Below, piece after piece: positions 23,752-43,396 of a stretch of DNA of 64,000 nucleotides. The DNA lies in assembly GCA_949751835.1 (NCBI GenBank), contig CATKHK010000011.1, forward strand, positions 496,327-560,326, in the 5' to 3' direction. Made by a program: the position numbers and the translations under genes. This stretch comes from Blepharisma japonicum. Its lineage: Eukaryota > Ciliophora > Heterotrichea > Heterotrichida > Blepharismidae. The notes below the pieces were generated by a model, which saw only the letters and a program-made list of their open reading frames with translations, was not told the origin of the DNA and did not search any database. Position 1 is the first letter of the stretch; each line of letters begins with the position of its first letter.

Positions 23752-25119
23752 ATGTCCGTAACAGACTTTGATATACTTGAAAAACTTGGCGAAGGAGCCT
23801 ACTCTACCGTCTTCAAAGTCCGCCGTCGCTCCGACGGCAAAACCTATGCCCTTAAAAAAGTCCGTTTCATGCCTTTAAAAGACAAAGAAAAAGAAAACGC
23901 AGTCAACGAAGTCCGCATTTTAGCATCAATAAGTCATCCAAATGTAATTGGCTATAAAGAAGCTTTTATTGATGAATCCACCAATACACTGTGCCTTGTC
24001 ATGGAATTCGCAGATAATGGTGACTTACTTCAAAGAATAACAAATCATCAAAAACATAACACTTATTTTTCAGAATCAGAAATTTGGGATATTTTTATCC
24101 AAGCTGTCAGAGGGCTAAAAGCGCTCCATGACCTTAATATCCTTCACAGAGACTTGAAATGTGCCAATTTATTCATGTGCAGTGATGGAATGGTCAAGCT
24201 TGGAGATATGAATGTGTCAAAGGTGGCTAAACTGGGCTTGGTTTATACTCAGACTGGAACTCCTTATTATGCTAGTCCTGAAGTGTGAAAGGACAAGCCT
24301 TATGACTCGAAAAGCGATATATGGAGTCTTGGGTGTGTTATATATGAAACTGCTACTTTAAATCCACCTTTTAGAGCTCAAGATATGAAAGGATTGTATA
24401 AAAAAGTCATTAAAGGGGACTATCCGCCACTTCCAAGCAGATATTCTGCACAGTTGTCAGATTTGATTAAATTATTATTAAAAGTTAACCCTGCACATAG
24501 ACCTACATGTGATGATATTTTAAATTTACCTGCGGTTGCACAGAGAAATACAAGGAGAAATGTTGGGGATTTGCCAGAAAATAATTTATTAGGGACTATA
24601 AAAATTCCTAGACAGATAAAAGGACTTTCAAATAATTTACCAGCTGCCAGCTATGAAAAGGAAAGAAGCTATCATAGTGTACCTGCTGTAACAAAAAGAA
24701 TGGGCATGAAGAAAACAAAAGATATGTCAAACGCGAGTGATACTGTCACAAACCGGATTTCTAGTGAAATCCAAAGCAATAAATCAAGAGTTTATAGCGA
24801 AAAAGAATTGAGAGGGAAAGAAATGCTGCCTCAAAGAGTAATTTTGCCTGAAATCGAACCTTTGAGACCTTATAATGCAGATAGAAGGTCGCAGAATAGA
24901 GAAGATTATGATGTTAGCCAACGGCAAAGACCACAAGCTTGTAAATTCTAATTAGATAAAGTTCCGCAAGTAGTTTCTTATTCGCCATATGCACAAGGGA
25001 CTATCGCACAGAGAATTCAAGCTTTAAAAGCACAATATGACAATGTTCCGCCAAGCATTGGGATCCCAAGACAGCCGAATTACCAAAGACCTGTGGTGCA
25101 GCCTTCGTGATGGGGCTAA
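23752..25119 (+). CDS. NEK-family Ser/Thr kinase with DMN in place of DFG
   Basis: One in-frame TGA and one 15-nt intron give 450 aa. The kinase domain fills residues 5-265: GEGAYSTVFKV, YALKKV with the catalytic Lys, ILHRDLKCANLF, and GTPYYASPEVW where the Trp is the TGA codon. The metal-binding motif reads GDMNVSK, not GDFG; the Asp is kept. The same DMN variant is, to my knowledge, common in a branch of NEKs from ciliates, algae and kinetoplastids. The C-terminal tail of 185 residues is basic and low-complexity, ending QRPVVQPSWWG. Likely roles are cilium length, basal body or cell-cycle control. Confidence 0.92.
24941..24955 (+). other. 15-nt spliceosomal intron in the NEK gene
   Basis: GTAAATTCTAATTAG. 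Its removal extends the tail by 56 codons to a TAA and uses two further Trp codons (TGA, TGG). Retention gives a TAA stop. Confidence 0.85.
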
Positions 25120-25605
25120 TTGTAGATTCAAATTTTAAATAAAAAATAATTTTACAAAATATAGTTTGCATATAGATTTTCTAAAATATTATTATAAAAG
25201 AGCTCTTAAATTTGATTTTTTATTATTATTCAGATCTGTCAGTGAAATTTTGACTCTTTTAAGAGTAATTTCATATTGCACATTAGAGCAATCTCAAATT
25301 TATATACTTAGAAACTCTTTATTAAGATAGTTCCTTTAATTCCTTTTGATATTTTTGAGCAATTTAAACACTTAAAGCGAATTTGAAAGAAAAATTAAGA
25401 ATTTTAATAAGAGTTTTTGATATATAAATTAATAATTCAATAATTCTATCCAAAAAAGCTTGATAATATTCCAATTATAACTCTCCAATTATAATGAACC
25501 TTTTCTTTTTGGTTTTATAAGGATTTGGATTCGCATTGTCACGGATTTAATGAAGGCGTTTATGCATTTTTATTATGGATTTAAACAAATCCGGATTAAT
25601 ATTAA
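25120..25605. other. AT-rich intergenic region
   Basis: 486 nt without a credible gene. A small inverted repeat (GGATTT-AAAC-AAATCC) occurs near 25577-25592, just before the next start codon; it may be coincidental in such AT-rich DNA. Confidence 0.45.
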
Positions 25606-26307
25606 ATGTTTTCGTTTACACAAAAAGCACTTAAAAGCTGCTCGGCTAACAAACTTTGGTCTAGGTCTCGATTTTTTACCGGAAAAATTAATTATTTTTC
25701 AACACAGATTGAAAATAAAGAAAGCTCAAGTGAAGATCCGAATAGAAAGGAAAATAGGGACTATGATTATGAAATTTTTGTAGGTAATATCAGTAGAGCA
25801 GTCAAAGAAAAAGATCTTTTAGAGCTTTTTCGAGCTTTTGGCAACCCAATTTTGTTGAAAGCATTAAATTCTAGGTCAGGGAATAGAATAAACTACACAT
25901 TTATTTCTTTTGATAATGAATCACAAGCCAAAAAAGCACTAAAGATGAATGGGGTTGATTTTATGGGTTCTCCTTTAAGAATCACTCTATCAACAGACAG
26001 GCCAAGATCAGAAGAAAGTAAATCTAGACCTGAAAACAGAGACCCATCTAAGTGTGTTTATGTTGGAAATCTCAGCTATTTAATAAACGAAACTTTACTA
26101 ATGAATTTATTTTCAGAATTTGGTAAAATTGAAATGATACGATTGAATCCTGGGAGATTTGGCCATAAATTCGCATTTGTGCAGTTTTCAAGCCAAGATG
26201 AAGCAAAAGAAGCATTAAAGCTGAATGGTAAAGATTTTCAGGGAAAGACGCTAAATGTCAAGCCAGCAGTGGCAAATAAACCAGTCAATAATACAAACCC
26301 AAGTTAA
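25606..26307 (+). CDS. Two-RRM RNA-binding protein, probably mitochondrial
   Basis: The 233-aa protein carries two RNA-recognition motifs. RRM1 (about residues 60-135) has RNP2 IFVGNI and an RNP1-like INYTFISF; RRM2 (about 150-225) has RNP2 VYVGNL and RNP1 KFAFVQF. The first 35 residues (MFSFTQKALKSCSANKLWSR...) are basic, hydroxylated and lack acidic residues, the pattern of a mitochondrial targeting peptide. It probably binds organellar RNA. A short overlapping frame starting at 25550 is a shadow. Confidence 0.85.
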   Translation: MFSFTQKALKSCSANKLWSRSRFFTGKINYFSTQIENKESSSEDPNRKENRDYDYEIFVGNISRAVKEKDLLELFRAFGNPILLKALNSRSGNRINYTFISFDNESQAKKALKMNGVDFMGSPLRITLSTDRPRSEESKSRPENRDPSKCVYVGNLSYLINETLLMNLFSEFGKIEMIRLNPGRFGHKFAFVQFSSQDEAKEALKLNGKDFQGKTLNVKPAVANKPVNNTNPS

Positions 26308-26411
26308 ATAATGCAGTAGCAGTTAATTATAGCTGAATTTTATTAAGAAATAAAAAATAACTCTTTGGGTTATGTAAATCTTGTAGACAAAGAAAACTTA
26401 ATAAAATAGTA

Positions 26412-26831
26412 ATGCTAAGCTTACTTCCTTTCCAGGTAATTGAAGTTCGACCCTCTATCCGCTTAAACAAGCTTTTTTCTAAGCTTCGGTTTCTTTGTGT
26501 TCTGCAAGGCATGCTCGGACTATTTCAGTCTATATACAGTCCTGTTGGAGGACTAATTATGCTGGTATCTTTATTGCTTCTTTACTGCATAACTATACGT
26601 AAAAACTGGGTCCTCTGCATAACTTACATTATTATATCCTTAACTGATATTTACACTGAATGGAAGCTCATTGAAGGTTTCTGCTTTTCCAATGAAAGAA
26701 AACATCATTTTATTCCTGGCGTTTCTTATGTGAAACTATTTTTTCATGTAATTGCTGTATATGTTGTTTTTCTTACTTATCGAGAACTTAAAGCATTACA
26801 TATAGAATTACTGCAGAGAAATAGAATTTAA
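26412..26831 (+). CDS. Small multi-pass membrane protein, unknown
   Basis: A 139-aa frame with about four hydrophobic segments (FLCVLQGMLGLFQSIYSP, LIMLVSLLLLYCITI, WVLCITYIIISLTDIY, LFFHVIAVYVVFLTY) and a charged C-terminus. No family is recognised. It begins about 105 nt after the RRM gene and ends 38 nt before the first calpain gene. A decayed copy of the same gene lies at about 28990-29277, also directly ahead of a calpain gene, so this gene and calpain were duplicated together. Confidence 0.65.
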   Translation: MLSLLPFQVIEVRPSIRLNKLFSKLRFLCVLQGMLGLFQSIYSPVGGLIMLVSLLLLYCITIRKNWVLCITYIIISLTDIYTEWKLIEGFCFSNERKHHFIPGVSYVKLFFHVIAVYVVFLTYRELKALHIELLQRNRI

Positions 26832-26869
26832 TTAATTTTGAAATTTTTTATAATTATTAAAAGCTTAAT

Positions 26870-28808
26870 ATGTCTTATGAAGACCCAGAGTTCGGCCCAA
26901 GTCCAAATAACTCTTCGATATATGGGGAACAATCTACAAGAAGGGTTTTAATCAAAATTCCATGAGAAAGGCTTAGAGCAGTTTTAGGAGAAGGTGCAAA
27001 CCTATTTTCAGAAGCAATTATCTTCAATGATATAAGTCAAGGAAGTATAGGTGATTGCTGGCTTATTAGTGCTATAGTTGCATTAGCAGAGCATGCGCCT
27101 GTGAAAATTGTTGGTATATTTGACCATAATGAATTAAATCATAGACAAGGAAAATACATTATCAGGCTTTACGAAAATGCTGAAGTGGTAAATGTTGTTG
27201 TTGATGATTTAGTACCATGCGACGCAAACACATGTAATCCAATTTTCGGTAAAAGTAATTGGGTTGATATGTGATTCCCACTATTAGAAAAAGCTTTTGC
27301 AAAATTATATGGTTCTTATTTTGCTTTAGATGCTGGAGAAACTCATGAAGCTTTTATAGATTTGACAGGGTTTCCTTCATTTAAATATAATATAAAAAAT
27401 TATACAGCTTGTGAGCTTAAATTGAGACTCATTGACTACAGTAAAAATAACTTCCCAATGGTAGTTTCTACTCCCACTGATATTGATGAAAATTTGGGAA
27501 TAAAGCACAATCACTGCTATGCAATATTAAGAGCAATTCAATTAGACAATTATTTTCTTATTCATTTGAGAAACCCATCAGGAAACAGCATTTGAAAAGG
27601 AGATTTTAGTCCAAATTCTGAGTGCTGAACTGAAAGTATAATAAGCGAAATTCAAAGGAATTACCCACTCTTCGATTTAAGAGATGGAAGCTTCTGAATG
27701 AAATATGAAGACTTTTTGAAATATTTTAACACTCTTAGCCTGTGCTATGTTGAGTTTGATATAGAAAAACGTGAAAAAAATATATTTAAAAAAGTTGAAG
27801 GAATCGGCTCGCAAGCTTTCTGGTACTATATTATTACTGTTAGAGAAGATGACACAGATATTGTGCTTGGGCTTCATCAAGAAGACGAAAGATGTATAGG
27901 AGTAAAAGAATGCAGAAAATATTTGGATTTAGGATTCGTCATGCTGAGAAAGAATGGCGAAAAATATGTGCCTTATCTTGCAAAAAAAAACTGCTATAAG
28001 TAGAGACTCACAAATGAAGCTGCGATTGTCCCAAGGAATATATGCAGTTATACCTGTCAGTTCTGGAATATCTTTAACTAGGCCGAAAACATCTCCAAAG
28101 AAATATTTTCCTTTGATTACTGATGATGCAAAAATGCATCCTCTGCTTCTAAGTACAGCAAAGGATATTTACCGAAGGATTAATATCCATATGAGGCAAG
28201 CTGTGAATTATAAAGAATTAATGGCTTTTTATCACAAAGAAGACGAATGTCTTACTGAGTCCTTTAGTAAGGATATTTTTAACGAAATCCGTGGAACCTT
28301 TGAAACCCAAAATCGGATCACTTTAAATGGCTTTTGCCAATTTATTTTAGACCAAACTAAAAAACACCATGAAGAGGACATAAGAAAATCTTTTAAATCT
28401 CTAGGGTATGATAGTGATTTTTACAGCAAAAAATCAAGAGCTGTGGTATTTACACTACACTCAAATAAAAATGTAGATTTAAAGACACACGAATTAACTA
28501 AGAAAATCAACATAAATGTATGGATTTTAATGGCAAAGTTCTATGGGACATGCTATCTTTATGAAAATGTAAAAATTTATATAATAACTCATTTAGAAGG
28601 TTGGTCTATCCTAGCACATAACAAGTCATCTGAAGCGATATACTTGAAATCAAATTTTAGTGGGTCTTCTAATGTGAATTTTTTTACAGGGTCTGAGATA
28701 TGCGAAAATTATTTGAGGCCTGGATACTGAAAAATAGTCCAGCATATATTTAAAATAGATATAAGTGTCGGAGCTGAATTAAAATGGGCTTTTTGCCCCA
28801 TCAATTAA
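26870..28808 (+). CDS. Calpain-like cysteine protease, copy A (one-base frame disruption)
   Basis: The frame opens MSYEDPEFGPSP and shows a calpain catalytic core: Cys63 in GSIGDCWLISA, His in IKHNHCYAI and Asn in HLRNPSGN. A C2-like calpain III domain follows (NIFKKVEGIGSQ..., LGLHQEDERCIGVKECRKY). Then come an EF-hand-like region and a C-terminal domain (KKSRAVVFTLHSNKNVDL...). Many Trp are TGA. At 27982-27990 a run of nine A shifts the frame; the other two copies continue in phase, and ignoring one A would give a 645-aa protein, the same length as copy B. This may be a sequencing indel, a recent null mutation or frameshifting. Calpains are Ca-regulated cytosolic proteases. Confidence 0.85.
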
Positions 28809-28881
28809 TTTAATGTTAATAATAAATAACAACTTTGAAATAGATTTAATGTAAATTAATTTATTTAAAACTGATTGAAGT

Positions 28882-28985
28882 ATGCTATATGAAGATCCTT
28901 ATTTTGGCCCAAATGATTAGTCTATTTATGGAGATGACCCCAAAAGAAATACTACTAAGATCTTATGATTAATCGAAGCACTCAC
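28882..28985 (+). pseudogene. Truncated calpain 5' fragment
   Basis: Begins ATGCTATATGAAGATCC and reads MLYEDPYFGPND, stop, SIYGDDPKRN before losing similarity. It matches the start of calpain C at 31551 closely (MLYEDPYFGPNDYSIYGDSP), down to the upstream leader. About 30 codons remain and a TAG interrupts them. Confidence 0.8.
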
Positions 28986-28989
28986 TTAA

Positions 28990-29277
28990 TTTTGTTCGAT
29001 TTGTCTGTTAAATCACACTCTTTTTATTAAGTACCATTCTGCACACAATATTTTATCCAGAACTATTAGCGATTAATGCACTCTAGAAGTATATCCTTAA
29101 CTAATTATTTACAGTAGAAACTCAATAAAGTTTCTGCTTTTTCACTGGAAGAAAACATCATTTTATCCCTGACGTTTCTTATATGAAGCTATTTTATGTA
29201 ATTACCCTATATTTTGTTTCCCTTATCGAGAACTTAAAGTCTTATATATAAAACTATTGTGGAAAAATATAATTTAA
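28990..29277 (+). pseudogene. Decayed copy of the small membrane-protein gene
   Basis: The 3' half (from about 29095) aligns well with 26650-26831: it keeps the equivalents of TTTCTGCTTTT, GAAAACATCATTTTAT, CTTATCGAGAACTTAAAG and the following leader of the calpain gene. The 5' half is only weakly recognisable. Stops and small indels remove the reading frame. It sits directly ahead of calpain B just as the intact gene sits ahead of calpain A. Confidence 0.75.
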
Positions 29278-29317
29278 TTTATTTCGAATATTTCTTAAAA
29301 TTATTAAATACTAAAAT

Positions 29318-31481
29318 ATGTCCTTTGAAGACCCAGAATTCGGTCCGAATGATTATTCTATATATGGGGAAAATCCATCGAAAAGAATATCAATCGATTA
29401 TCAATGAAAAAGGCTTGAAGAAATTTTGGGATTATTTTCAAGGCTATTTTCTGACGAGATGGTCTCCAATGACATAATTCAAGGACGTCTAGGTAACTGT
29501 TGGATTGCTGCCGCTTTAATTTCATTGATAGAGCACCAGCCTTTGAAAATATGAGAAATGTTTGACCACGATGAAAACAACCAGAGACAAGGCAAGCACA
29601 TTATAAGGCTTTATGAAAGTGGAGAACTCATCAGAGTTGTCCTTGATAGTTTTGTGCCATGCCGCATAGGCACAAATGCACCAATTTTCGGCAAAAGTAA
29701 TTGAATTGATCAGTGGTGGCCGTTATTAGAAAAAGCATTTGCGAAATTGTATGGTTCTTATTTAGCTTTGGATGCTGGATATTCTCATGAAGCTTTTATG
29801 GATTTGACGGGGCTTCCTTCATTCAAATTAGATATAAATAAGGATGAAGCTGACATGTTTAAATTAAAACTGATTGACTTTAGTGAGAAACAGTTTCCAA
29901 TGGTAGCTTCAACTCCTGATAAAATTGATATAAATAAGGGAATAAAGCCCAATCACTCTTATACCATATTAAGAACAGTTCAAGCAGGTGATTATTTTCT
30001 TATTAATTTAAGAAACCCTTCAGGAAATAACCAATGGATAGGGGATTTTAGTGAGAGGTCTTGGCTCTGAACTCAAAGTATAAAAAGCCAAATTCAAAGA
30101 GTTTGGCCACACTTTAATTTAAAAGATGGAAGCTTCTGGATGAAATATGAGGATTTTTTGGTGTATTTTGACACTCTTTATGTGTGCAATGTTGAGCTTA
30201 AAAAAGAAAAAAGAGAAAAAAATGCGTTTACAAAAGTTGAAGGTATTGGCTCATGTGCTAATTGGTGCTATATGATTACTGTTTTAGAAGAAACACAAGT
30301 TGTGATTGGAATTCACCAAGAAGACGAAAGAAATTTCGGGGTAAAAGATTGCAGAAAATATTTAGATTTAGGATTTGCAGTTTTAAGATATGATGGTCAA
30401 GATTATATTTCTCATTGCGTTTCAAAACAAACTGTTTTAAGTAGAGACTTACAAATGGATCTTACACTGCCTCCAGGAAAATATTTAGTTGTCCCTATCA
30501 GTTCTGGAACATCGCTAACTAGGCCGAAAAACTCTTGAAAGAAATATTTTCCACTGATTACTGAAAGATTAAAACTGCACCCTCTATTTCAAAGTACAAT
30601 AAAGGATTTTTACCGAAAGACTAATATACACATGAAAGAGGCTGTGGATTATAAAGAATTCATGTCTTTATATCGCGAATTTGACAAGGATCTCACTAAC
30701 TCATATTATTATAACAGCCAAAACCATTTAAAAATTGAGAAAACTATAAGCAAATTATTTTATACAGTATTTTGACAATTATTATGGTGAAATCTTTGCC
30801 CGTTTCTTCTTCAGCTCAAAGATTTTAAAACAAAATTTTATAAATTAATAATATTCCTTTCAATTAGATTTTTTATATATAATTAACAAAACCCCTAAAA
30901 GCGTTGCCCATTTGCGGAAGGGGATTGAGGATTATTTTAATAATGAAATCTGCAGAAACATTGAAACACCAAATCAGCTTACATTAAATGGATTTTATCA
31001 AATTTTTTATGATCAAGTATTAAATAAAGGTGAAGATGACGTAAGAAAATCTTTTAAATCGCTAGGGTATGATAGTGATTTTTATAGTACAAAATCAAGA
31101 GCTGTGGTATTTACACTACACTCAAATAAAGATGTAGATTTAGAGACACACGAATGTACTGAGAAAATCAACGTGGACGCATGGATTTTAATGGCAAAGC
31201 TCTATGGGATACTTTGTCCTCAGGATAATGAAAATGTAAAAATTTATAAAATAACTCATTCAGAAGGTTGGTCTATCCTAGCGCATAACGAATCATCTGA
31301 AGTGATGTGCGTGAAATCAGATTTCAGTGGGTCTTCTAATGTGAATTTTTCTACAGGGTCTGAAACATGCGAAAATTATTTGAGCCCTAGATGCTGACAA
31401 ATAGTTCAGCATATATTTAAAAAAGATATAAGTGTTGAAGCTGAATTAAAAAAGGGATTTTTGGCCTATCAATTTATTTAA
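29318..31481 (+). CDS. Calpain-like cysteine protease, copy B, interrupted by a 226-bp insertion
   Basis: Opens MSFEDPEFGPND and has the triad residues Cys61 (GRLGNCWIAAA), His (KPNHSYTI) and Asn (NLRNPSGN). The calpain III domain and C-terminal domain match copies A and C. The coding frame is broken by an extra 226 bp at 30705-30930 in the EF-hand-like region; omitting it leaves exactly 645 codons that align through the junction with A and C. No other stop is present, counting UGA as Trp. Whether the copy is expressed depends on what the insertion is. It is the middle member of three tandem calpains. Confidence 0.82.
30705..30930 (+). other. 226-bp insertion in calpain B, IES-like
   Basis: The segment is bounded by a 6-bp direct repeat ATTATT (30705-30710 and 30931-30936) that contains TA. 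It has no counterpart in calpains A or C. It has no long open frame and no clear terminal inverted repeat. It contains a short inverted pair CCCCT/AGGGG near its right end. Length and TA-containing boundary repeat fit a ciliate internal eliminated sequence or a small non-autonomous insertion. A spliceosomal intron is unlikely because no GT-AG pair fits these boundaries and all other introns are 15 nt. Confidence 0.6.
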
Positions 31482-31550
31482 TATTAATAAGAAATAACAA
31501 CTTTGAAATGGATTTTACATAAATTAATTTATTTAGAACTGATAAGAAAT

Positions 31551-33494
31551 ATGCTATACGAAGATCCTTATTTTGGTCCAAATGATTATTCTATTTACGG
31601 AGATAGCCCTAAAAGAAACATACCATTCCAAATTATATGAATAAGGCCTCAGCAGATTTTAGGACCACATGCAAGGTTGTTTTCTGATGCAATGGTGGTC
31701 GATGATATAAAGCAAGGATATTTAGGTAACTGCTGATTTGTTGGTGTAATAATTGCATTGATAGAGCACCCTATGAGAATAGTAGGCTTATTTGACGATG
31801 ATGAGCCAGAGCATAGACTAGGAAAATATCACATAAGGCTTTGCAAAAACGGCGAAATCATAAATGTCGTCATTGATGATTTAATACCATGCGATGCAAG
31901 AACAGATACACCAATTTTTACCAAAAGCAATTGGGTTGATATTTGAATGCTGCTATTAGAAAAAGCTTATGCAAAAGTGCATGGCTCTTATTTATCTTTG
32001 AAAGGAGGGTTGGCTCATGAAGCCTTTATGGACTTGACTGGGATTCCTTCATTTAAATATGATATAGACAAAATACAAGAAAAAGACGAGACTGAAGAAT
32101 TTTTATTGAAAATTATTGACTGAAGTAGCAAGCACTTCCCAATGGTAGCTTCCACAAGACAAGGAATACAAGATAATTCAGGCTTGTCCCAATCTCACTG
32201 CTATACAATAATAAGAACAGTTCAAACAGACAATTATTTGCTTATAAACTTAAGAAATCCATGGGGGAAATGCAATTGGGCTGGAGATTTTAATCCTCAG
32301 TCCGAGCTCTGAACTCCAGAAATAGTTGAAGCAGTTAATAGAAGCGGGCCACGCCTTAATTTGGGAGATTGGAGTTTTTGAATGAAATATGAAGATTTTT
32401 TGACGTATTTTAATGCTCTTTATGTGTGCAATATAGAACTTGATATAGAAAAACGCCAAAGAAACATTTTTAAAAAAATTGAAGGAATCGGCTCACAAGC
32501 TTTATGATGCTATATGATTACTGTTAGAGAAGAAAACACAGAAATTGTACTTGGGCTTCACCAAGAAGATGAAAGAAGTGTAGGAGTAAAAGAATATAGG
32601 AAATATTTAGATTTAGGGATTGTCGTAATGAGCTATGATGGTAATATATATATGCCTTGCCGATGCTCAGAAAAAATGCTGACTGAAAGAGATTTACAAC
32701 AAGAATTCACTTTACCTCCTGGAAGATATTTAATTACCCCTATAAGCTCTGGAGCAGCTTTAACAAGACCTCCTGATTCTGAAAAAAAAGTATTTCCTTT
32801 AATTACTGAAGAAGGAAGTATGCATCCTTTATTTCAAAGCACAATAAAAGACATTTTCCGAAGAGCTGATATTGATATGAACCAAGCTGTAAGTTACCAA
32901 GAATTCATGACCATGTACTCCATAATTGGAAACCTTTCTGAAGACGAATTTAATAGTATCATTTGCAGGACTTATGACAGTAAGAAAAACCGGCTTACCT
33001 TAAATGGCTTTTATGAATTTTTTATGGCCCAGACATTAGATAAAGGAGAAGAAACAATAAAAAATTGATTATCATTGCTCGGATATGACAGCGATTTTTA
33101 TAGTTTAAAATCAAGAGCTGTGGTATTCACAATGCACTCAAATAAAAATGTGGATTTAGTAACGCATAGCTTAACTGAGCAATTGAACTTACAAGCTTGG
33201 ATGTCATTGGCTCTATTAAATGGAAAAATTGATGTGAATATTTCGCATATAAAAGTTTATAAAATAATAAAATCAGGAGGTTACACAATACTAGCCCATA
33301 ATGAGTCAAATTCAATTATGAGTGTAACTTCAAATTTCAGCGGATCTTATAATATGAATTTTTCTTCTGGGTCTGCTATTTGTGAAAACGTCTTAGATGT
33401 GGGATCTTGGCAAATAATTCAGCATTTATCTTGCATAGACTCAAAATTAGAATATAGGCTATCTTATTATGTAAATGTCAGAAGTATATCTTAG
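31551..33494 (+). CDS. Calpain-like cysteine protease, copy C (intact)
   Basis: An uninterrupted 647-aa frame with about ten TGA Trp codons. The catalytic core has Cys61 in GYLGNCWFVG, His in LSQSHCYTIIR and Asn in NLRNPWGKCNW. A C2-like domain III lies around residues 300-420 (KKIEGIGSQALW, LGLHQEDERS). An EF-hand loop is visible at DIDMNQAVSYQE (acidic residues at 1, 3 and 12 of the loop), and a weaker second loop follows. The C-terminal domain begins at KSRAVVFTMHSNKN. It is the only copy of the three that is clearly whole. Its leader and first codons match the truncated relic at 28882, so that relic came from a C-type copy. Confidence 0.92.
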
Positions 33495-33541
33495 AATATT
33501 TTATTAAAAATAAATCATTTTAATTGAGATAATTTATTTAT

Positions 33542-34249
33542 TTATCTCTTAAGGACCAATTCTGGATTGGCTCCCATAATTCTCATTTCTTGCAGCTCAT
33601 ATCTTCTTTTCTCTTCTTCAGTGACACTAGGCAAGTATTCCACTGAATATCCGACATCCCCTTTTAGTCTGCTGAATGAAAAAGATCTCCCACCTGCTAT
33701 AATTAATCCAGCTGCAAGTCCTATAAGTGAGTAACGAAAAGGAGCCATCATGCTTCCTGTCATTTTTCCTAGAATGGCTCCATTTAGAAATCCTAAAACT
33801 CCGAACTTAGTGAAAATGTTTGCATCAAACATATGGTCGAATAAATCTGAGGTAAAGCAAAGCCAAAATCCGAAAAATCCTCCGATAGCTGCATATTGTG
33901 GGGTGAAGTTCTTTAAGGTGATTTTCGTGAGCTCAATAGGAATAAATTCAGATGGTCTAAAAGCCATTGCCACTTTACGATAGAGGTAAGGAGAGTGAGT
34001 TGTCATAGGATGAATAACTGTGGCTCCAATAAGAGTGCCAAGAATTGCGCCTTCTACCAAGGGATAGGTGAAGTGAAGAACGTAATTTCTTGAGTGCTTC
34101 CAATCATGAAGAAATTCTCTTAAGGAGTATTTATCTGAGTGATATGGATTTGGGTAATTGCCTCTACGACTCTGATATCTGAGACTTCTTTTTTCATCGC
34201 CTGTAAGGCCTGTTAATATTGGAGAGTTTGTTGAGACTGAATTTCCCAT
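33542..34249 (-). CDS. Multi-pass membrane protein, unknown
   Basis: A 235-aa frame starting MGNSVSTNSP, a context that could be N-myristoylated. Several Gly-rich hydrophobic helices follow (LVEGAILGTLIGATVI, AAIGGFFGFWLCF, FGVLGFLNGAILGKMTGSMM, YSLIGLAAGLIIAGG). The glycine-zipper spacing resembles Tim17/22/23 or complex I accessory proteins of mitochondria, but no diagnostic motif is present. The C-terminus is charged. It converges with calpain C, with 47 nt between the stops. Confidence 0.65.
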   Translation of the reverse strand: MGNSVSTNSPILTGLTGDEKRSLRYQSRRGNYPNPYHSDKYSLREFLHDWKHSRNYVLHFTYPLVEGAILGTLIGATVIHPMTTHSPYLYRKVAMAFRPSEFIPIELTKITLKNFTPQYAAIGGFFGFWLCFTSDLFDHMFDANIFTKFGVLGFLNGAILGKMTGSMMAPFRYSLIGLAAGLIIAGGRSFSFSRLKGDVGYSVEYLPSVTEEEKRRYELQEMRIMGANPELVLKR

Positions 34250-34908
34250 TGAAATTTATTATTATTTTGGTTTGGTAATTGAAAATATGAGATTTTATAT
34301 ATAAATTTACTATGATGTGCATATAAATAGGCAAGTGTTTAAATTTTGCCTTTAATTTAATATAGCTTAATATGAGAATAAAAATCATAAATTCAATTGA
34401 AGATTAACTACTTACTTAAACTGCTTAACAAACTCTCAAGTTGAATTTATAGCGCTGTATTTATGATTGGAAATGCTGTTAATCATACTTTATATTAATT
34501 TAAAAATTATATAATCATTTAATAAAAGCAAGTTGATAAGCATATTTGGTAAAGAAGGAAGCTCAAAGGAAAAAATATTTATTTAAGGAATAAACTTATA
34601 AAATTAGTGATAATTTTCTAATATTTAAATTAATAGTATTTATTTAGTTTTTGATTTTAAATGCTTATGAAAATACTATAAATCAATTTTAGTTATTCAT
34701 AATAAATATTTGTAAACAGCGAAGCAAAATATTTGTAATTATAAATAATTATTTTTGAATGCGACTATTAAAATATCATAAAAATTGAATATCAAGTAAT
34801 ACAAAAAATCTATTTTTAAAAAGTAATCTACAAACAATTTTAACAATTCTCAATAGGGCTTCTAACTAAAATGGAGAAAATAGATCGCGATCTTGAGTCT
34901 AATAATTT
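34250..34908. other. AT-rich divergent intergenic region
   Basis: About 660 nt between divergent genes. A short frame from an ATG at 34871 ends after 21 codons and overlaps the start of the next gene in another phase. I see nothing else. Confidence 0.5.
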
Positions 34909-35559
34909 ATGGATATCAGATTCTTTACAACTTTTACAACTGAATCAAAGGTAAAAATCGAGAAAAAACATCAAAAAAGAAGAAGCTCAACCGGAGAGTG
35001 CTTTCTCAATGTGAAATCTACAATTCAAATGAAAAAAAGGTTTTCCTTGGATTTTACCTGCCTGAATTATTTCACCAAAAATATCGATACCATCTCCAGC
35101 AATTCAAGCCCTAGAAGCCAAATTTCGTGCAGAATCTGTTTAGATAGCTCAAGAAGAGACGAATTAATTGCTCCTTGCAAATGTAAAGGCTCCTTAAAAT
35201 TCGTCCATAAGTCATGTCTAAAGCAGTGGCTAGACGCATGTCCTAAACAGGATGACGAAGCTCATTTTTGTGAGCTCTGCAAGTGTAAGCTTGATATTAA
35301 GTTTAGGTATATATGAAGTTATAGAAAAAACTGTTCAAAAAATACATCGTTGGTGATTTCGATGATCATCTCATTTTTGGTTATTTTTTCATTGCTAGCA
35401 ATTATTGGAGCGAAAGTCAGCTCTGGAGAGATAGATTCAATGCTAACCACCTTATTTGTACTTCTAGCACTAGCAATGATGTTTTGTTTTGGAGTCACCA
35501 CACTATCACTAAAAAGCCAGTGCTTTAGGCTTTCTGTTATAGACTGGGACTCAGCGTAA
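34909..35559 (+). CDS. RING-CH (MARCH-type) membrane E3 ubiquitin ligase
   Basis: A 216-aa protein with one TGA Trp codon near 35316. The RING-CH (C4HC3) finger is complete: CRICLDSSRRDELIAPCKCK, then VHKSCLKQWL and HFCELCKC. Two hydrophobic helices follow (SLVISMIISFLVIFSLLAII and LTTLFVLLALAMMFCFGV). This is the MARCH layout of a cytosolic finger next to two membrane spans, used to ubiquitinate membrane proteins. The N-terminal 70 residues are basic and lack a domain. The start is the first ATG in frame. Confidence 0.9.
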
Positions 35560-35872
35560 TTTTTGAATTAATTTTTTAACCATAAATATTTAGTCTATTA
35601 TTTTCAAATTCCTATATTAAATTATTCATTATTTTTAGAGCATTTTCAGCATTTTCTAAGATTATTTTAAAATATTAAAAGTCATTGATCATTTATTCCA
35701 AGATTATTTTTGGTTTCTCTATAATACCATATTTGATTTAAATAATGAATTAATTATTTTTATTTGTTGCTTATTAAAAAATTGTCACTTTCTAGTAAAA
35801 TTCTAATAAATCCTTTAAAATTCTACAGCTTCCCTCAAAGATATTTCAACAAATAATAAATTATCTTGAAAA
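35560..35872. other. AT-rich intergenic region upstream of SZT2
   Basis: About 310 nt with many stops in all frames. I see no gene; it presumably carries the SZT2 promoter. Confidence 0.5.
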
Positions 35873-38800
35873 ATGGAAAGACCTGAGACCACAGTCCTCG
35901 CTAATTTTAGAAAAGTTTCTTTCGTCGAAAGAGCTTTATGATACATCAACTCAACTAGACATCCTGAATCTGCCTGAACTAGCAATATAGCCCATATGTC
36001 TGGGAGCAGCACTATTACACCTAACACAATCACAACTTTTCACTATTCAAAGTATCGAATTATCATAATGATAGATTTGCCTCCTTCTGTATTTTCCTAT
36101 AATTCCAAACACAATGATTTTACTATTAATTTGATCCCATCAGTAGTTAAAAAATTTTTAGAATTTTTATATGAAAATTCAGCTGACATAAATGCAAAAA
36201 TTGACTTAGGGATTATTTGTGTCAGAATGCCTAATGAGCCTATAAAAGTTGTAGTCCAGTCCTACCGTTTACAGCACTTTGAAGACTCTATAGACATAGT
36301 TGACCAGCTTTCTTTTTATCTGCATGGCATTCAGTCAGAAATAGGGAACACAATATCGTCCTTATATTCCAGTGAGAGATTGGAAGGAGGAATTGAATTT
36401 ACCACAAGCTTAAAATGAAGCCTTTTTGCTTTAAATTTAATGGATGACGATGCATTGCCTATGGTTGTGTATATTACTGATGCTGTTAATTGTAATTTGG
36501 TCCTTGGGATTTATGATGGATTAGTAATGCAGTATTGCAGGGCTGACGTGGCGTTTCATATAATTAATTTATCAGACGGAACTGGGTCTTATTCCAGTCA
36601 ATTTGGATATTTATCAGACCCTATGAATATAAAATTGATGGCAAAAGCGACAGGTGGGATTTATATGACCCCAAACAATATCCATGAAAAAACGAAGTTA
36701 ATTTTGGAGAGAAAAATTTTCTTGACTGCTAAAAGAGATATTTATTATGACGGTAGTGAAAATTTACAGTGTTCACAGTTTGAAGAGTATTGTGTTCCTA
36801 TGCCTCATATCATTTTAGTACAATGTACGCTCAGAGAAGGTTTCATGCTAAAAAATATTGATGGAGAAAAAATAATTTTATGATTTAACTGCCACTGCAG
36901 TACAAAAATTGAATATATAATCTACCCAATTGATAATGATAAAAGCACTATTGAAATTAATATCATAGGAAGACCAAAACTTTTCAAAAAATTAAAAATG
37001 AAAGGGTTAACGTCTCCTCTTTTATCAAAAGAATCTAAGCCTTCACTAGCAGCAAGAGTTATATGGCTAATTCAGAATATGAAGGAAACAGAACAGACTG
37101 CATTAAATTTATATCAAGGGATAACTAGAAATGATATAAGATATTTAGGAGAGAAAATGGTAAATATTCATTTATCCAAATGGCATAGATGATTCCATGT
37201 AGAAAGCTTAGATCTTATTATCACCAAATTAAACCAAAACCAGCCTAACTATGGAAGAGAAAAAGTCAGAGATAAAATCAAGACCTTAGGAAATGGCTAC
37301 TTTATAGACGACATGTATATTGAAATTGTGGAAAAAACTGGGATTTTCGCTGCAAAAATTAATTGAGAAATCTATAATAAAGCTGCCATTTATTTTGCAT
37401 TTTTCGAGTGCCCAACTGAATTTCGGCTTGAAAAATTAGAATCAATTTATAGCAGCTTAAAAAAATCCTGCCAAGAAGTATTCGACAGACCTATGTGTAA
37501 AACAATAGTAGAAGAAGCCCCAGCTCAAAAAAAGAGTTATTGGTCAAAAGTTTACTCAGTTTTTACTTACAAGCCTCACAGCAAGGCTATTAAATCCTTT
37601 ATGTTCAAATGTATAAGAAAGCAGCACCTCTACACATTGAGATCTGCCCAACTCATGATAAATATATTATTTGCATCACGACTTAAGCAAGGCTTTTATT
37701 CTATAGGTTACTGTGAAAGAGACAAATTTTTATTATTAAAACCATTAGAAGTAGAAATAGACAACAGAATTCAAAGCTTTTTTATTCAATATTTAATTTA
37801 CATTGAAAAAACTGAAGTTATTACAGAATTATATGTGGAGCCAGCATTAGCCAGCTTTTTTGATAAATTTGAGTATGATTTATTGCAAGAAATCAAAGAA
37901 GAATATGAGACTTATGACGATTTTATGTATAGCTCTATTTTTTGCCTTGATTTTTTAATATATAAATGCTTAGAGCATAAGCTTGATAATGGAAGCTTAG
38001 ACGATACTATGAGCAGCGATGATTACGACACAAAAGTTATAGAAATATCTGAAGATGATGATTTATTTTGCTATATTCAAGTAGAAGATTTAAGTAAAGC
38101 TGAAAATTATGACGAAATTAAAGCTCAAACTTATGAGAAAATGTATGAGGTCATGAATTCTTTTCAAAATTTCTGCCAGTGTACCCCTAAGCTGCCTTAT
38201 TTATTAAAACACTCTAATTATTATTCATTGGATTTAGAAGTTTTTTCTTCAGAGCATATTTATGCATCAGAAGCTTATAGATGTGCCCTTGGTAGACTGT
38301 ATTCTAATACTTTAACAGCCTTTATAGATATGTCGGATTATCAGGACTGTGTGGACTCTGTGCATCATTTTGTGAGATATATAAATTCTAATACAATTTT
38401 AATATGGCTTTTACCTAGTTTTGAAGAATTTTTGTGTGCTTTAAGCTACTCAAAGAAAAGTTTTCCGATTTACCTATATGAATGTAGCCAACATAAGCTA
38501 GACACTATGAACATTGATAAGAGAAGACAGTCTGCCCCAATTGTCCTACTCCAGCAGAACACAACACTATGCAGATCTATTCAGCTTCTCCAAAGAATAT
38601 ATAAAGCTGTCTTAAATGGAACTTATTACCAAGCATTAAAAAACGAAGAATTACTCGCCACATTTGAAGATATGGAAAGGCTTGTTTCCTGCTGCGAAAT
38701 CAGTACCTACACAATAGAAATTTCAACAATTTACAATAATCTCCACAAGCAATGGGACTCCATCGAAGACCTTTCTAAATGCTTAATTTCCAGAACTCTT

Positions 38801-41800
38801 GAGCTAAATTCTGAATTATTTAGAGAAATTGACGAAAAATTCAACAAGCTTTTATCAAAATATTTCAAAAGAATCCCTAATAGCAACTATTTTATACTAA
38901 ACGATGATAAAGAAAAATGCCTATTAAGCATAGACAACTTTACAACCCTCCTCAGTCACTGCACAGTCAACTCTGAGGTCTCTATAAACCTGTATAGTCT
39001 CCAGCACAAAACATTTTTTTCCAAAGAAAGACATCAGCATAAAAATTTAGAATCTCCTGTGTCCCCTACCAAAAAAATAAAAAATGGGCTATTAAGTATC
39101 GTAGGAGAAAAAGCACGGTCTTTATATGCAGAAATTACCTTAGATTTATTGTCAAAAAAATTACCGATTGAATATGAAACTTTACAATTTGTATTAGAGC
39201 AACTGAATTATGTCCACGAGACAGTAAAATTTGAGTATAAGGTAGAGTCTGTGCTGAAAGAGCAGGATATCACAGAGCTGATTAACCAGGAATTTGTAAA
39301 AGGAAAAGTAGTGTCTACAAGGACTATTGGGGATGTACATTTTGTGGTATGCCAGACTGTGGTGGCATTTCCAGGAGTTTGTCAGGAAATGGTGGATATG
39401 GACTATTCAGTCCCATTTTGGGTGATTATTAAAGTCCATCAACCAAATATCATTGAATGCTCTTTTTTCTTGCCAGATCATATGAAAAATACAGAACTGA
39501 CTGTTGAAAAGGTCCAGATAAGACTTGCAGGGTATTTTAAAGACATTGAAATTAGGGTAAACCAAAGGATGCTGCTAAAACAGCTAGAGGAAACTGGAAA
39601 AATTTCTAATTTATTGATGAACCTTGACAGCCAAATCGAATTTCCCAATGAAAATTACGAAAAAGGCCCAAGAGAGCGTGCAAAAAAAAGATTCACACGA
39701 TTTTCCACCACAAATAAAATCCTTCCTAACCAAAAACCAATCACAAAAAACCTTATTGCTTATAAGCTTCCCCTCCAGCATACAAACCAATTTATAGTTT
39801 CCGACAGACTCGCCAAAAATGAGTCAATAAATTCCTTAATCTCAAAATTCTCAATTCCTCCCTTTTTAATTGACAATCGTGAAGGCTTATACCAGCTTGC
39901 CCATGACTCTGATATTCTTGTTTTTAAATTTTCTGAAATTGAGCAAGAAAGAATCGCGTCATACCCAAAACACCAGACGACGCCTAGTAATTCTCCAAAT
40001 CACAGGAGGACTTCTTCATCTTTGATTATCAGGATGGTGAAATTGGAAATTTATGGAATTGACCCTCCTTCTGCTGATACTATAGAAAAGCTAGAGCAAA
40101 GGGTTCAGGAGCAGCTGCAGCAGATTTCACTGTTTAAGCTTGCTGATTCGTTGATAAAAAACCAAAAAAATGTGATGACGCTGGGAGATTCACAGTTTAT
40201 CCAAGGAAATCTGCCACCTATTATTATATTATTTCCTATTACGTCTCTGGTTTCTGATATAAATTTATTAGCAAAATATGCAAAGCAGAATTTAATGAGA
40301 TTTTTGGTTTTATTCCAAATAAGAGAATTGCTAAATGAAAAAGAGCCTTCTGTGCTGGTATATAATTATTTAAATATCATTGAAAGCAGCTCATATAAAA
40401 CAAATTCCCCTATATTTAAATCTAGACAGGAAACTAAACAGGCTCAATTTTTAGGAAATACGTTTGGGAAAGCTTTAGCGCTACTATATCTTGACGTGTA
40501 TTATTATAATGGTGAAAATATCATACCATTCACTGAAGCTCCTAATGAATGCAGCCCGACCTTTGAAACTTGGAATGAAAATTATATTAAAGCTGAAATG
40601 CTTATAAATAAAACAAGCGGAATGTCTAGCCCTTCTTTTCCAGGAAATTATTTAGAAATCAAAATTTACAAAAATGGCCCATTAAATGAAAGTATTTTTT
40701 TTGAAAAATTAAATAAATGCATAAATCAAAGCATTTCTGAATATTTAATTGAAAATTTGATACAGTCGTGTATAAAAGAAGAAAAATATGGCTATAATGG
40801 ATACAAGCAAATAGCAGATTTGACAAAGAGAGCAATTGAGCTATCCCTTCATTTTCCTACACAGAAAATCGAACATTACGCCCCACCTTTTGCATTATTT
40901 CAATTTTTTAGTAAAATTTTGCATATTTTTCAAGAAAATAACAAGCAAAAATTCCCATTAGTAATGTGTCTGGAGGAAGGGGAAATTAAGCATATTTCTT
41001 CCAGCATTGAAAATTTACAGTCATTATGGGAGCTTGAGTATCTTAATGAAAAAAGTGTTGGTAAAAATTTCAAATTTTCTGCTATTGGAGGACCCTCAAG
41101 TTTAGGGAATTTAATTGGTGAACAATTTGAAGAATTTAAATGCGATGATATGAAATTTTACTCTGATGAAATCGGAGAAGGTCTAGGGCAGATTCCAAGG
41201 TCATTTTTTATTTACATAGAAATCACTAATACTTTCTTAGACGTTTATACTTATAACTGAAACAAAACAACTCTCCAGAAACTTCACAGTCAAATCGAAT
41301 CACATGTGCATTGGAACCGACAAAGATATAGGCTCGTCAATAATGCTTTAACTCAAAAACTCGGCCTTTTCCACCACAATATCCCTATGGACACTTTTTC
41401 ATTTTTAAGAAAATCACATCAAATCCAAATGTTTCCTCAAGCTTGCACAATATTAGAGCTTAAAGAAGAATTCGAAAAATTTTCTCTCGATTCTTTATTA
41501 AATTCTGATGAAATAACCCACACCGCAATTTCTACTGAAGACTCAGTCCAAACCTTCAAAATGACTGGGATGTTTCCTATGTTAAAAGATATAAAAAATA
41601 ATGAAGAAATCCCAAATGACAAAGTAAAACTCCATGGATATTTTTTAAATATGATGTATGAGAAAAAACGAGCCATATATGAAGACTGCTATAAGCTGGC
41701 CTATGCATTTAAAAAATGGGTCTATGAAAAAGATAGCTCTGCTATGAGCATTGTAAATCAGCTACTTAAAAAAGGGGGAAGCTTTAGAAATGAAAGCAAT

Positions 41801-43396
41801 TTAGCAAGAGAATTAATTACACAAGCCCAGATGATCCATTGTGAAAAAGCTCGGCTGTTTTTCGAAGTTTTAGACGTCCCTGCAACTGAGCTTGATAGAG
41901 AGCGTCAAAAAATGCAAAAATTAATTGCTAATGTTATGAGATATTTAGTTATCGAAATTAAAAGAACTACAAAATTGGACGATATGAAAGAGGATTTTGG
42001 GTTTATGAGAAAAAGCTCACATGACTTTTCGCCTGAAAATTCTTCAAGCAACCTCCTACGAAGAAAAAGGACGAGTTCTGGGATGTTTGACACTGAATCC
42101 AATATCCAAGTATTTTTAAAAAAAGCGCTAGAACAAGCTATAATCATTTTAGAAGTTTCATATGATAAAAATTTTATTATTACAAGCTCTTATTGTGTCG
42201 AAAGTATTCAGAAATTAATCCCTTTTACATCTAGAGATGACGACCCACCTTCTATGCATTTAAAACGGGAACTCCAAAAAATAAAAACGTCAATACAGTC
42301 AGAAACTTATATTTATGACGCCCATATAAAGCATTTATGCTATTATTTGTGCAGACCAAGGGATTATCCTTCAATTAATTTAATAGCGACACTTAACACT
42401 ATAGGGAAACTTTATTATAGCAAACCACCATCTGCTAACAATTGGCAGCATACAGGTATGATGTCAATTGATTTAGGCGAACTAAATGGGATCACTATTA
42501 AAGAAATTTACCATTATTTTACACTAAACTGTGACGAATATGGGTTTACTGCGTTTACAGCAGGGTCTACACCGTGGCCTGTTTATAAAGTTTTTAATTT
42601 ATCAGGAGAAGAGCTGTCAATAAACCAAGAAAATGGTAGCAATAATGCGTCAATTTTAGAGCTATCCCCTACTTCATCAGTAAGGAGAATTTCTAATTTC
42701 TCTTCAGATGGAGCAATCCCTACTCCTCCGCCTGAGCTGAAATATGCTACGTCATTAAGAGCGATTATTTATACTCTTATAGACACTAATGATTCCTCAA
42801 GACCTCGACCTATAGTCCGCCTTGAAGAAAGTGAAACAATTTACAAGCTGAGAATCCGCTATTATATATTAAATTTTGAAAAAACAAAAAAAGCTGGCCC
42901 AAAAGACACGCTAAAACAGATAAAAACAAAAGCTGAAGAGTTTATATTAGAAGCTATTAAAAAATCAAAATCTCATTTTAGGAGAGACCAACTGTGGGAA
43001 AGGCTTGGATACTTGCCGAGCAAAGATATTTGTCCTTATGAAGATTTTTTACAACTACTGCAAGCGTCTGATGTGCAGCCAATTGAAGAAATTGATCCAA
43101 GAATTTCTTTGTTGACTTCGCTTGGAAATGTTTTTACTTCAGATTGTTTTGATTATTTATATGATGTATTTAAAGAAGATTCAAGAAGATTTGAAGATAA
43201 AGACTGCCTTCATTTAGTAATTTTCAACTCCCCTAGGCTTTGTGCGCATTTAAAGATTATTTCAGATGAACAAAATTTGAAAATAAATGCTGTGAGGAGG
43301 TCGAAGGAGTATAATAAAGATGTGGAAGATAATTTCATATCGGACATCGTCAGCGAAATTTTGCAGTGGCTTTGGTCCAGGGTGACATCAAGATAA
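35873..43396 (+). CDS. SZT2: SZT2 homologue (KICSTOR complex subunit)
   Basis: A single intronless frame of 2,507 aa with at least six TGA Trp codons. The N-terminus matches the SZT2 start: TTFHYSKYRIIIMIDLPPS parallels the human TFLAWQYRFVIELDLSPS, and a VWA-like region follows (PMVVYITDAVN, FGYLSDPMNIKLMAKATGGI). Further matches are the LRLR-like EGFxF block (RLKQGFYSIGYC), VITELYVEP and, near 41220, FLDVYTYNWNK with QKLGLFHH. In animals SZT2 anchors KICSTOR and GATOR1 at lysosomes to repress TORC1 under amino-acid starvation. The ATG at 35873 is the first in an open frame limited upstream by TAA, so the N-terminus is shorter than in human. Confidence 0.88.

Follow-up and report, generated by a model that had tools for sequence, protein, structure and literature searches.

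A 229-bp insert with TA-bearing ends in a Blepharisma calpain gene: a possible internal eliminated sequence in assembled somatic DNA

In the germline of Blepharisma stoltei, 39,799 internal eliminated sequences (IESs) have been assembled, of which about 70% lie within genes and some three quarters have direct repeats that contain TA, as described in PMC9942856; over 41 Mbp this corresponds, by our own calculation, to approximately one IES per kilobase. According to the same description the IES lengths show a peak at 228 bp, presented as the only one of four non-periodic peaks without a repeat family, TA-type repeats are commonest in IESs of up to 228 bp, and the GC content of IESs is 33.3%. 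Residual IES retention scores in B. stoltei macronuclear DNA are given there as at most 0.02, which would make it exceptional to find an IES in a consensus, and partial excision is reported at some retrotransposon loci (PMC9942856). For Paramecium, PMC3464196 cites from earlier work an IES that stayed in the macronucleus following a point mutation. B. stoltei also harbours BogoMITEs, which are described as about 389 bp long with TAA/TTA flanks and an inverted repeat that is C-rich and about 30 bp long, in some 8,000 copies (PMC9942856).

The stretch of DNA analysed here, the window of 64,000 bp, is G000:C11:496327-560326 and belongs to a 45.2-Mb assembly of 224 contigs. The telomere repeat CCCTAACA, searched as an exact threefold run, gave 168 matches genome-wide (77 forward and 91 reverse) and its reversed control 0 matches in the assembly; among the matches listed (100 of 168, in contig order), contig C11 has the run at the contig start only. 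Together with TGA as tryptophan in the calpain frames and a GC content of about 32%, this telomere identifies the host as a Blepharisma (telomere and genetic code as described in PMC9942806). Long uninterrupted frames, such as the 2525 stop-to-stop codons at 35819-43393, suggest that the sequence is macronuclear and not germline.

Three calpain genes, A, B and C, lie in tandem at 26870-33491:

26870-28805, forward strand: calpain A, with a frameshift at an A9 run near 27980 and four extra codons at the insert site
28879-28956, forward strand: start of one more calpain, C-like and truncated, lying between A and B and carrying an in-frame TAG
29318-30703, forward strand: 5' part of calpain B, with Peptidase_C2 over the full profile and the first EF-hand half by comparison with C
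30933-31478, forward strand: 3' part of calpain B, with the other half of the EF-hand pair, as judged from C, and the C-terminal part, followed by TAA at 31479-31481
31551-33491, forward strand: calpain C, uninterrupted, 647 codons

All three match Peptidase_C2 along essentially the whole profile (E-values of 2.6e-58 in A, 9.1e-59 in B and 4.4e-63 in C), and the 5' part of calpain B also has a Calpain_III match that stays under the family cut-off. A and B share 75% identity at 26633-28233 against 29090-30674, and the 3' end of A with its spacer and the truncated C-like start is 85% identical to the 3' end of B with its spacer and the start of C (28270-28949 against 30928-31618). The C-like fragment at 28879-28956 is probably the remnant of a lost array copy. 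The frame of calpain A shifts by one base within nine consecutive A (region 27930-28000). Inspection by eye showed no 16-bp GT-AG stretch that would account for this, and either a real lesion or a homopolymer error in sequencing may be the cause.

Calpain B is open from the ATG at 29318 into the insert and stops there, and its 3' part follows in another frame that is open to 31478 and closed by the TAA at 31479. The insertion in calpain B is real and certain, and apart from it the gene is without frame lesion. By comparison with C the break falls in the linker of an EF-hand pair; the EF-hand_7 match in calpain C covers query residues 434-495 and is below the family cut-off (23.8 vs 30 bits). 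The features of the insert are as follows:

30704-30932, forward strand: 229-bp insert in its best register (one TATT copy and the rest), from a junction scan against a paralogue profile
30705-30930, forward strand: alternative insert of 226 bp in the ATTATT register
30704-30707, forward strand: left TATT, start of TATTATTATAA (30704-30714)
30933-30936, forward strand: right TATT, start of TATTTTAATAA (30933-30943)
30705-30710, forward strand: left ATTATT of the 226-bp register, with the right copy at 30931-30936
30704-30883, forward strand: 60 insert codons open in the calpain frame, the predicted tail of a truncated product if the insert is retained

Two 16-bp stretches inside the insert, 30790-30805 and 30898-30913 (TTGCCCGTTT/TTGCCCATTT), are 81% alike and lie 108 bp apart.

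The length of the insert was assessed by scoring in-frame junctions with the last kept base at 30674-30733 and the first kept base at 30890-30950, giving 1220 junctions and 712 distinct proteins, against a profile of seven paralogues and with no repeat used to set the length. The top 11 of the 712 proteins all remove 229 bp. Three in-frame registers have a TA-containing repeat: TATT at 229 bp (30704/30933) scored 235.6 bits and ranked 4 of 712, the best junction having 238.3 bits, ATTATT at 226 bp scored 231.4 bits (rank 28), which is 4.2 bits below TATT, and ATTAT at 223 bp scored 229.7 bits (rank 64). The seven-paralogue profile includes L018, which lacks its C-terminal part, and two further profiles were used, one of six paralogues, likewise without A, and one with the 3' part of A added. 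In all three the best junction removes 229 bp and the order is 229 > 226 > 223; with A added, 232-bp junctions, in which at most AT is repeated, appear from rank 5. L018 (G000:C70:112623-114254) ends before its C-terminal part, and four calpain queries gave no further match in the 4632 bases searched there. Three junctions without a TA repeat outscore TATT at 229 bp by 1.3 to 2.7 bits. Their advantage comes from GAG GAT (30927-30932), which they retain in whole or in part and which resembles the ED of C and L015 when translated, and they argue mildly against a TA boundary.

Removal of 229 bp also fits the five-residue linker spacing from L/I to F/Y (L-x4-F), which is kept in six of the seven aligned paralogues (C, L012, L014, L015, L017 and L018, with L016 gapped); A, whose 5' half was out of frame in the alignment and of which the 3' half alone was used, has four more codons. 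The insert coordinates are thus better given as 30704-30932 on this comparison, and removal of these 229 bp would return calpain B to family length and frame with 644 codons. The original prediction had described calpain B as broken by 226 bp between ATTATT repeats. The interruption and the repeats at 30705-30710 and 30931-30936 are as it described them, and removal of 226 bp does give the 645 codons from the ATG that it counted (646 residues including one before Met), but the profile favours 229 bp over 226. It had also aligned the junction with copies A and C, of which A is not a clean reference owing to its frameshift near 27980 and to its four codons more than the family at the site.

At the 229-bp register TATTATTATAA and TATTTTAATAA form an imperfect 11-bp direct repeat with 9 of 11 positions identical. 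The repeats were compared with 5000 dinucleotide shuffles of the insert in each test, the flanks being kept. A TA-containing repeat of at least 4 at 229 bp alone was found in 13.9% of shuffles, and one of at least 6 in 5.6% (226 and 229 bp), 7.8% (223, 226 and 229 bp) or 12.7% (six registers). At 229 bp, an imperfect repeat with at least 9 of 11 positions identical occurred in 1.0%, the 11-bp length having been picked after the repeat was seen. The repeat alone is thus weak evidence. The lack of an obvious inverted repeat, as originally described, was borne out, as no convincing terminal inverted repeat was found at the insert ends, where 4 to 6 of the first 12 positions match depending on the register. 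The repeat finder listed 20 inverted pairs within 451 AT-rich bases around the insert, and one 10-nt pair (I16), 90% complementary, joins 30705-30714 with 30935-30944, but the right arm of this pair is flanking sequence and coincides in part with the AT-rich direct repeat.

The insert resembles the B. stoltei IESs in its TA-bearing terminal direct repeats (TATT at 229 bp, ATTATT at 226 bp), its intragenic position, its in-frame removal, which at 229 bp would restore the gene, and its genus, and its 229 bp are 1 bp from the described peak of 228 bp. It differs from them, as far as they are described, in being part of an assembled consensus, in its GC content (26% vs 33.3%) and in having no convincing inverted repeat; the last point is not decisive, as such repeats are common but not universal in Blepharisma IESs. 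With the retained IES of Paramecium it shares an IES-like stretch left in somatic sequence, but that case is stated from earlier work, and the calpain B insert is known from one assembled sequence instead of a mutant and wild-type pair. BogoMITEs and MITIES are likewise small non-coding inserts in a Blepharisma genome; the BogoMITE was rejected, since the insert has 229 bp and neither such ends nor such flanks, and the Bogo repeat piece had 0 matches in the assembly.

A retained or partly retained IES, as originally proposed, is possible and is the most natural single reading of such a stretch in Blepharisma. The anatomy fits, and the assembly encodes PiggyBac-type domains in 12 matched stretches, three of which span the full profile with no stop but TGA (Pogo-type DDE_1 domains were found four times); the terminal repeat, which was part of the same proposal, is not clearly beyond chance. 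We consider it possible, at somewhat less than an even chance, that the 229 bp are an insert of the IES type which the assembled somatic sequence has retained. A piece of germline DNA would then have been inserted into the EF-hand linker of the gene, flanked by TATT repeats that bear the TA, and a PiggyBac-type excisase would cut at a presumed TA site, leave one TATT and restore an in-frame calpain of 644 codons. Given its presence in the assembly, the insert would persist in the somatic copies, either in all of them or in a large fraction, and as long as it is kept the product of B would have the protease domain and end after 60 insert-coded residues. Retention might be caused by the missing inverted repeat and possibly by weak ends. 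Excision in any molecule would be an inference from the sequence, as would the TA cut site and the cause of retention.

Alternatively the insert may be an ordinary recent insertion, for instance a small non-autonomous element that is never excised, leaving B as a young pseudogene or truncated calpain in a decaying array. This is a serious though less probable possibility, and the anatomy of the insert suits it as well. The insert is present in the consensus, and no insert-free calpain B was found among the 25 scored candidates of a calpain search in the assembly. The end repeat is near chance, and the neighbours are damaged (the frameshift of A and the truncated C-like fragment), so that an ordinary lesion in B would not be out of place. 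Against it, removal of the insert restores the frame at family length, and no dispersed element is seen: dispersal had been named as a finding that would speak against an IES, and when the 45-Mb assembly was queried with the complete insert, with two of its sub-pieces and with a 23-base pattern allowing 3 mismatches at most, the searches, which skip common words and could miss diverged copies, gave back the locus itself and no second copy.

Other sources for the insert were likewise rejected. A blastn self-comparison of 24001-36000 at E 1e-4 gave no match to the insert except in its last 5 bases, where the A-B match 28270-28949/30928-31618 starts, and it is therefore not taken as a copy of another part of the array. 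AT-rich matches elsewhere in the window, obtained with filtering off and word size 6 (best E 0.001), were not accepted as relatives. No RNA family was found at E 1 in 30600-31050, and the phage collection had no match to the insert. A duplication or conversion breakpoint was dismissed because the sharper A-B similarity starts near 31037, some 100 bp downstream of the insert. There the A-B identity jumps from 70 to 93 per 100 alignment columns, and the sharper similarity runs over 31037-31435 against 28376-28767, with subsequent blocks of 76, 89 and 91, as from gene conversion.

The rate of change in calpain B bears on the ordinary insertion from both sides. In our own Nei-Gojobori count with 200 bootstraps, the A-B dN/dS is high, with 0.48 (0.37-0.65) for the 5' part (355 codons) and 0.72 (0.45-1.20) for the 3' part (178 codons), as would suit a decaying array; the B-C values are 0.31 and 0.50, respectively. 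With C as outgroup, the excess of change expected in B itself is not seen: unique amino-acid changes in the 3' part number 13 in B and 19 in A (176 codons, 23 unresolved), those in the 5' part 37 and 40 (354 codons, 56 unresolved), and those in the 89 codons from the A frameshift to the insert site 4 and 11 (20 unresolved), a comparison that is weakened by the damage to A itself. Calpain B thus shows no extra decay beyond the insert and no sign of long decay, which would make the insert either recent or absent from the molecules that count.

It is unlikely that the insert is a true IES that is excised from most somatic molecules and was assembled from germline-derived or low-frequency reads. 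The TA repeat and the in-frame anatomy would be the same, and in a repeated array assemblers may pick a minority path. This explanation is opposed by the lack of a sign of germline carry-over in two patterns, as 18- and 20-base pieces of the published Bogo and BstTc1 terminal repeats had 0 matches in the assembly with up to 1 and up to 2 mismatches, a result that would also be expected for a species without those elements.

Since the frame is open for 60 codons into the insert, a length equalled or exceeded in 1.3% of 20000 shuffles, the insert could by now be part of a working gene, a shortened calpain with its last 60 residues insert-coded and a silent 3' remnant. The full Peptidase_C2 profile within the truncated frame (E 9.1e-59) is in keeping with this, but the tail matches no Pfam family, and the 3' remnant is open and changes no faster than in A, which would not be required of a silent remnant. 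We regard such a gene as improbable.

Calpain A has its four extra in-frame codons (12 bp, AGTAAGGATATT) at the insert site, and these agree with the right end of the insert, ATTGAGGATTAT, in 8 of 12 positions. Within them ATTGAGGAT of A and AGTAAGGAT of the insert right end agree in 7 of 9, which was reached in 0.5% of 20000 shuffles and in 0.9% with slack. The extra codons may be the scar of an older, differently bounded excision or one of several small A-B indels in a loose linker. That the insert predates the A/B duplication as an IES turning into coding sequence, with a 12-bp leftover in A and the whole IES kept in B, seems to us quite improbable; an alternative right boundary would then have left the 12 bp in A, and B would have gained the 60 open codons and become a truncated calpain.

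An intron had also been named as a finding that would speak against an IES. The insert does break the coding frame and its removal restores it, as for an intron, but there is no GT between 30666 and 30766, and a length of 229 bp compares poorly with B. stoltei introns, described as predominantly 15-16 bp (PMC9942806). A canonical GT-AG intron is excluded by the missing GT, its size would also be wrong, and a spliceosomal intron in general is barely credible.

If the insert is carried by all reads, it would be an ordinary gene lesion. If reads show instead that some somatic copies lack the stretch, calpain B would be a natural locus, with its tandem relatives as controls, for studying the escape from excision of a single-copy Blepharisma IES that has no inverted repeats.
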